From positions 1,984,001 through 2,048,000 of the forward strand of contig KE546967.1 of the NCBI GenBank assembly GCA_000442125.1: a stretch of DNA of 64,000 nt, in the 5' to 3' direction. The translations under genes and the position numbers were made by a program. The DNA comes from Opeltia flavorubescens. Taxonomy: Eukaryota; Ascomycota; Lecanoromycetes; Teloschistales; Teloschistaceae. How positions within the stretch are numbered: the stretch's first letter is position 1; the number at the start of each line of letters is the position of its first letter. The notes below the pieces were generated by a model. The model searched no databases. It was not told where the DNA came from and saw nothing but the letters and a program-made list of their open reading frames with translations. Positions 44,094-45,831 of the stretch are shown here, piece by piece.

Positions 44094-45831
44094 ATGACAA
44101 ATCCTCAATTTTCTGACGGCCAAGCGGTCGAACAGCCCATCACAATACGGCCACTCAAACTTGGCCATGGCTCCGATTTTGAAGATGGCTCAACTGCGAT
44201 GTCTGCCAAAATTCTTAGCGTCATCTACAAGTACCGTCTCATGAAAGCAGCCGATGCCCACGACAGATGGGTCGAAGGTACCCCCAAATTCCTCGATATC
44301 ATTGATAATTTTGTCCGGAAAGGCCAGCCCGTCCAAATGTGCATGCCGGCATTCCCTTTCAAGTCAGCGAACAAGGTATACAAGGTCCTAGGATCTCTAC
44401 CAGATCGAGCCGAAGAAGCGGCGCTGGAGTACATGAATACCATGTGCGCTGAAATTGGTGCCATCTATGGCCCTGGTGCTAAGCTGCTTATCGTCTCTGA
44501 CGGATTGGTATACAACGGTGAGCTTACCCGTCCAATAGCTCTGGCAGCATTCTCATCCTTACAATGTGAAAAAATAGACCTCCTCACCATCCCCGACCGA
44601 GAAGTTTGGGCCTACGGCCAAGACCTCCGAGCCATGTCCGCAAAAAAGTTCCCAAACATTGAGTTTTCCCGTCTCAGACAACTCGTCGCCATCGACCTTC
44701 CTGAAAAACTGGACGAGGTGACTTACGTCGCCAACGCCACAAATTTCCGACGCGCGCTCCTGACTCAGTTTGGGAAAGATGGGCTGGACGTTCACAAATT
44801 GATTCAGGAGAATGAGGACACACGATTGACATTTTGCGGGCACTCCCGCTTCTTGACTAATGATTTGCGCTATATCTTCCCTAAAAGTGAGCTGAGGGGT
44901 AGTAACCAATACAAACGAGATGTGAAATTCATCGCGAGGGAGATGATCAGGAGGGGTTTCGTATGTACTATCTTCTCTTTTTCTTTCAGACACATCAGCC
45001 TATCCCGCTTCAGGGAAAATCCCTTCCGCCTGCCCCTCTTCTCTTATCCAACAACCTCATCCCATCCCAGCACAAAATCATAAAACATATTTCAGCCCAA
45101 CACCCAATTATCGACACTCCTCTCTTATTCCCCTCTCTTATCCCCCATCCACATACTAATAACCCCCCCATCTACTCTAGGCTTTCGCCGCAGCAATTAA
45201 ACACAACTTCCCACACCATCTCCGCCTCTCCATCCACCAATCCACAGGCGAACACAAAATCTCCCTCTCCCTCCTCCCGACTACGACGAGTTACACCACG
45301 CCCTGGATGTGCGCTATTGCGTACGCGGCTGATGGAACACTGACTAGTGCTCCGAAGGGAGATTTTGAAAGCGAGGGCAAATGGCAAATTGTATACCATG
45401 ATGGGAGGGCTAGTCACTTCGAAGAGAAGAAGATGGCAGAGGAGGGGCGGGAGAAGGAGGCGAATGGCCATGGCGTTGCGAATAATGGCGAAGGACACAT
45501 GGATGGTATTGCCCGTAATGGGTACGTATTGGCCAATAATGAAAAAGATGTGGTGCGAGCGAAAGGCACAAAAAATGTAGGAGGAGGTCCCCCCTGCGAG
45601 CACTGCGGCAAGAATACGCATGGTGTGGAGAGATGCTTTGATAAATTTCCGCATTTGGCGCCGAAGTGGGTTAGGGAGAAATTGATGTCGGCGAATGGTG
45701 GTGGTGGTGGTGGTGGTGGAGGGAGGACTGCTACTACGGCTCCTGATGAGGTGGGTGCGACTACTATTGGGGGTGTAGAGGGGGAGATGGTTGGGAAGGA
45801 GGTAGGGGGTGTGGAGGGTGGGAGTGGATGA
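44094..45831 (+). CDS. Isocyanide synthase (Dit1/PvcA family) with C-terminal CCHC zinc knuckle
   Basis: Two exons, 44094-44960 and 45181-45831, with a 220-bp GT-AG intron; the junction reads MIRRGF-AFAAAIKHNF in phase 0. About 505 residues. The Dit1/PvcA domain covers ~1-340: ILSVIYKYRL, QMCMPAFPFKSANKVYKVLGSLPDRAEEAALEYM (the conserved FPFKS..K..G..PD block), GAKLLIVSDGLVYN, DREVWAYGQDLR, RLTFCGHSRFLTNDL, LRLSIHQSTGEHKISL and TPWMCAIAY. These enzymes turn the amino group of an amino acid into an isocyanide using ribulose-5-phosphate. The tail of ~165 residues is not part of the family: a charged linker, then CEHCGKNTHGVERC, an exact CX2CX4HX4C knuckle followed by a FPHLAPKW segment, then a nine-Gly run encoded by GGT repeats. 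No ICS-fused NRPS domains. Confidence 0.88.

Follow-up and report, generated by a model that had tools for sequence, protein, structure and literature searches.

In the accessible text of PMC5974471 and PMC10153163, isocyanide synthases (ICSs) are divided into single-domain, ICS-dioxygenase (TauD) and ICS-NRPS-like types, and all ICS proteins in the data set of the second paper belong to one of these three architectures. The single-domain fungal enzymes, such as A. fumigatus IcsA and yeast Dit1, have the same Pfam domain (PF05141) and family fold as the ICS described here, which comes from the Opeltia flavorubescens assembly (34.4 Mb in 23 contigs) and lies within the 64-kb stretch of DNA that was analysed as a whole (the window). 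Compared with those enzymes, the window ICS adds a conserved CCHC module, carries TPWM at a site where most of the family has TPWH, and belongs to a clade with the further changes D176Q and Y230H. The bacterial enzymes PvcA (3e59) and PIsnA (9dh4, 9dhm), which are 25–29% identical to our model of the related protein P0005, keep TPWH, and their sequence matches stop before the tail of the window ICS. The two fused types likewise consist of an ICS domain and an extra part; going by the accessible text of PMC5974471 and PMC10153163, the TauD and NRPS-like extras are enzymes, whereas that of the window ICS is a small predicted zinc-binding module. An earlier note on this DNA had held that the fungal fusions described are with NRPS-like domains; such fusions are on record, as are TauD dioxygenase fusions in the same portions of the two papers. 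A literature search made mostly outside subscription journals returned no paper on an isocyanide synthase with a zinc knuckle and none on the active site of the isonitrile synthase PvcA, and the words 'knuckle', 'lichen', 'Lecanoromycetes' and 'fusion' are absent from the accessible main text of PMC10153163. We conclude that the ICS-knuckle architecture is real and conserved and that, within the reach of these searches, it is undescribed, bringing a known enzyme family and a known kind of small domain into a new combination that is coupled with a change in the enzyme core. It would add a further architecture to a small, metal-linked class of natural-product enzymes, and may be a case in which lichen-forming fungi have put a piece of retroelement Gag to new use on a metabolic enzyme.

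The ICS gene occupies 44094–45831 on the plus strand, where three exons splice into a single frame of 485 amino acids encoding a DIT1/PvcA protein (Table 1). Both introns are of the GT..AG type. Intron 2, which the earlier note had already placed at 44961–45180, agrees with the alignment of homologs, while intron 1 was overlooked there because it is in frame and contains no stop. We take 44518–44577 to be an intron since the profile alignments of the genome's other ICS genes have gaps at this very position and homologs skip this stretch; the window ICS and the paralogs have an intron in common at this position. Pfam DIT1_PvcA (PF05141) scores 309.6 bits against a cut-off of 26.4 over residues 70–334 and is the only domain found in a Pfam scan of the 485-residue protein, with no second domain and no Gag capsid or polymerase part. 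The end of this domain and the knuckle stand in one open exon, so that the in-frame tail reported from the first reading is upheld.

Table 1 Features of the ICS gene and its immediate neighbours (positions in the window)
Feature	Position	Strand	Basis
Zn2Cys6-type transcription factor frame, upstream of ICS	42187..43518	+	Zn_clus 21.0 bits, exactly at cut-off
ICS exon 1	44094..44517	+	141 codons and one base; frame, splice site; match to Pfam positions 1-71
Intron 1, 60 nt, in frame, stop-free	44518..44577	+	GTGAGC..AATAG; profile and homologs skip encoded peptide
ICS exon 2	44578..44960	+	Frame and splicing
Intron 2, 220 nt	44961..45180	+	GTATGT..TCTAG; agrees with homolog alignment
ICS exon 3: enzyme-domain end, variable linker, zinc knuckle, extension, variable end, stop	45181..45831	+	Uninterrupted frame
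DIT1_PvcA domain, residues 70-334	44301..45375, introns inside	+	Pfam PF05141
Met312 in TPWM, His in most of family	45307..45309	+	Alignment
CX2CX4HX4C zinc knuckle, residues 408-421	45595..45636	+	Exact motif; conserved in homologs
Extension FDKFPHLAPKW, residues 422-432, leading into predicted helix	45637..45669	+	Conserved; helix 431-445 in P0005 model
MFS transporter pieces, downstream of ICS	47663..48807	-	MFS_1, one piece above, one below cut-off

The tail of the window ICS reads CEHCGKNTHGVERC followed by FDKFPHLAPKW, and the exact CX2CX4HX4C motif claimed for it is present at residues 408–421. The nine Gly that come directly after the conserved part are not conserved in homologs. When exon 3 (216 residues) was shuffled, the motif arose in none of 20,000 draws; together with the conservation of the tail in other species, this led us to reject a chance motif. 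Across all six frames of the window, CX2CX4HX4C occurs at only one further place, 4170 on the minus strand, and there the extension is lacking. None of the curated Pfam knuckle models exceeds its cut-off for the window protein; zf-CCHC_5, the Pfam GAG knuckle, matches five of ten tails (best E 0.0021), with 13.7–15.5 bits against a cut-off of 27 in the three proteins scored by bits. Judged by its sequence, the knuckle would bind one zinc. The anatomy fits the suggestion that a natural-product enzyme has gained a new module for binding metal, in which the binding of zinc has the standing of a prediction.

How widely is the tail distributed? Of 7,997 candidates scored in a whole-protein search, 460 had E ≤ 0.001, and the best 120 of these 460 were examined. 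CX2CX4HX4C is present in at least 10 homologs (10 of the 120 listed out of 460), each time followed by an extension with K-x-PHL. Eight of these ten come from Pyrenodesmia, Gyalolechia (two), Heterodermia, Alectoria, Bacidia, Lepraria and Agyrium, genera that according to a taxonomy look-up all belong to the Lecanoromycetes (Agyrium to the Ostropomycetidae, the rest to the Lecanoromycetidae, with Gyalolechia placed via G. ehrenbergii). The closest ICS relative in the tree is that of Pyrenodesmia (Teloschistaceae), with 91% identity over 317 aligned columns. Searching with the window tail on its own found a single relative, and within its own genome the tail has no other match; a profile built from an alignment of ten tails, including that of the window and omitting P0019, reached more proteins, with lengths limited to about that of the query. 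It returned 19 proteins at E ≤ 10, of which 15 (P0121–P0135, with P0133 from Gyalolechia) are C-terminal ICS ORFs in which the reading frame passes from the end of the enzyme into the knuckle without splicing. The two checks put forward in the earlier note, looking for the tail in orthologous synthases and searching with an HMM of the tail alone, both found it, in 10 of the 120 listed homologs and in 15 ORFs, and the best non-synthase match in the second is the Gag-like P0136. The spacing is CX2CX4HX4C in all ten tailed homologs and in 14 of the 15 short ORFs, P0135 having CX2CX3HX4C instead.

Mean pairwise identity among the window protein and 25 relatives is 73% in the knuckle region (28 residues), 32% in the linker and 24% behind the knuckle region; these means cover 26 proteins, or 25 in the case of the linker, and the value of 73% is inflated because 15 of the 26 were found via the knuckle. 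The four metal ligands as well as K17, P19, H20 and P23 of the knuckle region are identical in 26 of 26 aligned rows. Because the module is conserved while the linker diverges, selection appears to act on the knuckle module. The tail, which related lichen fungi also carry, is an old, maintained addition, neither private nor recent.

For a structural view we used an AlphaFold2 model of the clade member P0005 (Alectoria), made with 60 sequences and without zinc, which stands in for the window protein. The core is mostly above 90 pLDDT, and the linker stretches 361–376 and 381–403 are below 50. Residues 401–440 have block means of 71, 89, 86 and 83, and a helix spans 431–445. The model matches PvcA (3e59) and PIsnA (9dh4, 9dhm) with a Foldseek probability of 1.00 and E values of 4e-21 or better. 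Knuckle and helix are thereby predicted to form a compact small fold on a flexible, disordered tether.

Trees were made with the tails removed and the last residue of TPW[H/M/Q] masked, using 121 rows and then, more carefully, 39 of those rows. Eleven knuckle bearers, including the window ICS, lie inside one clade of 14 rows (support 98 with 121 rows, 100/98 with 39 rows). In two of the other members, P0012 and P0061, the ORF continues into intron-like sequence before exon 3; the third, P0008 (Letrouitia leprolyta), has TPWM and ends before the tail, suggesting that the tail was lost or that the gene model is too short. With these labels, the knuckle changes three times on the 39-row tree and forms a single clade in 0% of its bootstrap trees; one of the three changes is owed to P0012, where exon 3 lies outside the ORF, and one to P0008. 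The closest rows outside the clade, Chaenotheca (Coniocybomycetes) and Xylographa bjoerkii (Lecanoromycetes), are both TPWH and tail-less. With X. bjoerkii outside the clade, the tail may have originated at the base of the class, within the class or in one of two paralogs.

The same proteins differ from the rest of the family at the TPWH site, where the window ICS has Met in place of a near-invariant histidine. All 14 knuckle proteins that have TPW read TPWM, whereas the 107 tail-less proteins with TPW (among the 120 listed out of 460) have His in 105 cases, Met in one (P0008) and Gln in one (P0045). In the alignment column at 312, Met occupies 12 of 12 clade rows with the site, and the other rows have His (105) or Gln (2). 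The 13 remaining proteins with the knuckle pattern comprise two non-ICS proteins (P0136, P0138), ten ORFs whose start coincides with the site or lies behind it, and the short knuckle ORF P0132, absent from the tree, which reads IPWT there. The four other ICS paralogs of this genome are TPWH. Further changes in the clade are D176Q in 13 of 14 members and Y230H in 12 of 14. TPWM synthases may have an altered chemistry. The paired change from TPWH to TPWM gives a handle on the role of that histidine and on whether this lineage makes products other than the known isocyanides.

We consider it probable that the window protein is an ICS-family enzyme with a fixed, once-acquired CCHC module, probably derived from Gag, that has a tethered docking or regulatory role. 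The module would comprise the CCHC knuckle, FDKYPHLAPKW and the helix, on a linker of ~30–60 residues predicted to be disordered. Most simply, it would have been gained once, within or near the base of the Lecanoromycetes, most likely from the nucleocapsid knuckle of a copia-type Gag, and then kept by selection; on the same branch, the near-invariant TPWH histidine of the core would have become Met. The core would carry out the isocyanide reaction, or a variant of it, on an amino acid. The knuckle would hold one zinc ion and, on its tether, would act in docking or regulation, with a protein or RNA as partner or in response to metal status, the docking role being one that we infer. A bolder version, in which a Gag knuckle domesticated in the ancestors of many lichen fungi and the His-to-Met change on the same branch founded a synthase peculiar to this lineage, with a zinc-bound tether controlling its activity or its choice of partner, is put forward tentatively and is somewhat more likely to be wrong than right.

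With regard to the source of the tail, the best non-ICS match of the tail profile is P0136 (157 aa, E 5.1e-10), which contains CSHCGSSKHPVDRCWTKNPHLAPKWF and shares PHLAPKW; hhalign aligns it to the tail over 39 columns with a probability of 98 and 51% identity. A Pfam scan of P0136 gives no match, Gag included, and by our reading by eye the protein looks Gag-like, a helical-looking stretch being followed by the knuckle. Folded alone it gives a poor model (mean pLDDT 48.7), and in a comparison with viral contigs seven stretches fit a pattern, none of which was confirmed. P0137 (tail-profile E 0.078) is a probable copia piece, going by a Pol_BBD match of 26 bits against a cut-off of 27, and P0138 (E 0.54) has three knuckle-like stretches; the profile matches the Copia VLP protein 8vvw (PDB) with E 0.23. 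Copia-type Gag knuckles and the window ICS have the CCHC core in common, and P0136 in addition shares RC-x-x-K-x-PHLAPKW; unlike copia-type Gag, the tail of the window ICS comes with no capsid or polymerase part, is fused to an enzyme and has T or S before the His. The earlier note had likened the spacing and an FPxLxPKW stretch to Gag knuckles of copia-type elements, a likeness that gains support from P0136, whose identity as Gag is our own reading. Descent of the tail from a copia-type Gag is plausible on these comparisons, with slightly better than an even chance.

An ancestor among cellular CCHC proteins rather than Gag is less likely than not, even if it has several points in its favour: SLU7 (PDB) has CGxxTH like the ICS knuckle and a tail-profile E of 0.0011, CFKKHPQL is found in a second PDB protein with a CCHC domain (E 1.3e-5), and the genome itself has 32 zf-CCHC matches, 23 of them above cut-off. 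Scans of the genome with PF00098 and PF14787 matched other places and not the window knuckle. Against a cellular origin, the full PHLAPKW occurs outside ICS, among the hits, only in P0136 and P0138, which we read by eye as Gag-like from their layout or several knuckles.

As for function, two alternatives to the tethered docking or regulatory role deserve mention, both of them rather improbable. The knuckle could bind nucleic acid as in Gag, tethering the enzyme to RNA or single-stranded DNA, which would agree with its Gag-type spacing, its Gag-like best match and a knuckle region that mostly has K or R at positions 6, 13, 17 and 24. Classical RNA-binding retroviral knuckles, however, have an aromatic residue at position 2 and Gly before the His, whereas here position 2 is P, E, S or M and the Gly is replaced by T or S; in addition, DIT1_PvcA is the sole Pfam domain of the protein. 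Zinc is usually structural in CCHC knuckles, which argues against the second alternative, that the tail senses or stores metal in connection with isocyanide chemistry and adjusts the enzyme to the supply of zinc or copper. This alternative draws on the link between isocyanide clusters and metal homeostasis made in the accessible text of PMC10153163, and on the clade's gain of Met312 and His230 (12 of 14), which might be soft-metal ligands.

That the tail belongs to a different gene or is not translated, an artefact of a gene model drawn from DNA rather than transcripts, is very improbable and was rejected, since a single open exon contains both the end of the enzyme and the knuckle, in the window as in P0121–P0135, the 15 ORFs read without splicing, and the reading frame of the tail is kept across species. 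The earlier note had raised the capture of a Gag fragment; that this took place recently and in this genome alone, for which 27 copia reverse-transcriptase remains could speak, is barely credible and was rejected: the tail is common to named fungi of two Lecanoromycetes subclasses, seeded searches of the genome (which decayed copies might escape) returned only the window's own knuckle with P0136 and nothing with PF14223 (Gag), leaving no related Gag found, and there are no direct repeats of at least 40 bases in 40000–50000 of the window. All 27 copia matches contain stops. The 16 stretches examined (L015–L030) have a GC content of 17–24% and are strongly depleted in CpA/TpG, a pattern expected of repeat-induced point mutation, to which it points; in all frames of these 16 there is no CCHC motif and one chance Gag match (E 8.9).

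Finally, we looked at the surroundings of the gene and at other ICS genes. The upstream transcription factor frame (42187–43518) is 66% identical over 265 aa to the start of P0001 from Pyrenodesmia, in which annotation has joined factor and ICS, and its Lepraria counterpart is a 48-aa stretch joined to the ICS; the factor and the ICS probably adjoin in Pyrenodesmia and Lepraria too. Pfam, applied to 20 frames, also identified an aminotransferase downstream of the ICS and an HpcH-type aldolase to its left. According to the accessible text of PMC10153163, ICS clusters commonly hold MFS transporters (about 60%) and zinc-finger factors (21.3%). Some 6–11 kb to the left of the ICS, 32859–37601 (minus strand) encodes carrier domains and a sub-cut-off dehydratase, adjoined by an adenylate-forming reductase (AMP-binding C-terminal, carrier, NAD_binding_4). 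Elsewhere in the genome, three ICS paralogs (G000:C2:1003965-1004830, C16:283912-284830 and C9:110629-111490) have a TauD dioxygenase in the same or a nearby frame, with no knuckle in the stretches examined. Another ICS, at 292–1161 (minus strand) of L011 (G000:C16:678000-680500), shares one frame with PF14510, an ABC-transporter N-terminal domain. PF05141 is joined with PF14510 or PF00005 in at least 18 homologs (18 of the 120 listed out of 460), an ICS-ABC arrangement outside the three architectures given in the accessible text of PMC10153163. Within the window, a 369-aa frame at 56044–57150 has a catalase match of ~100 residues with a sub-cut-off NPHP3_N ahead of it, and 61464–63416 encodes a HeLo domain (prion-inhibition and propagation family) together with a sub-cut-off kinase match.
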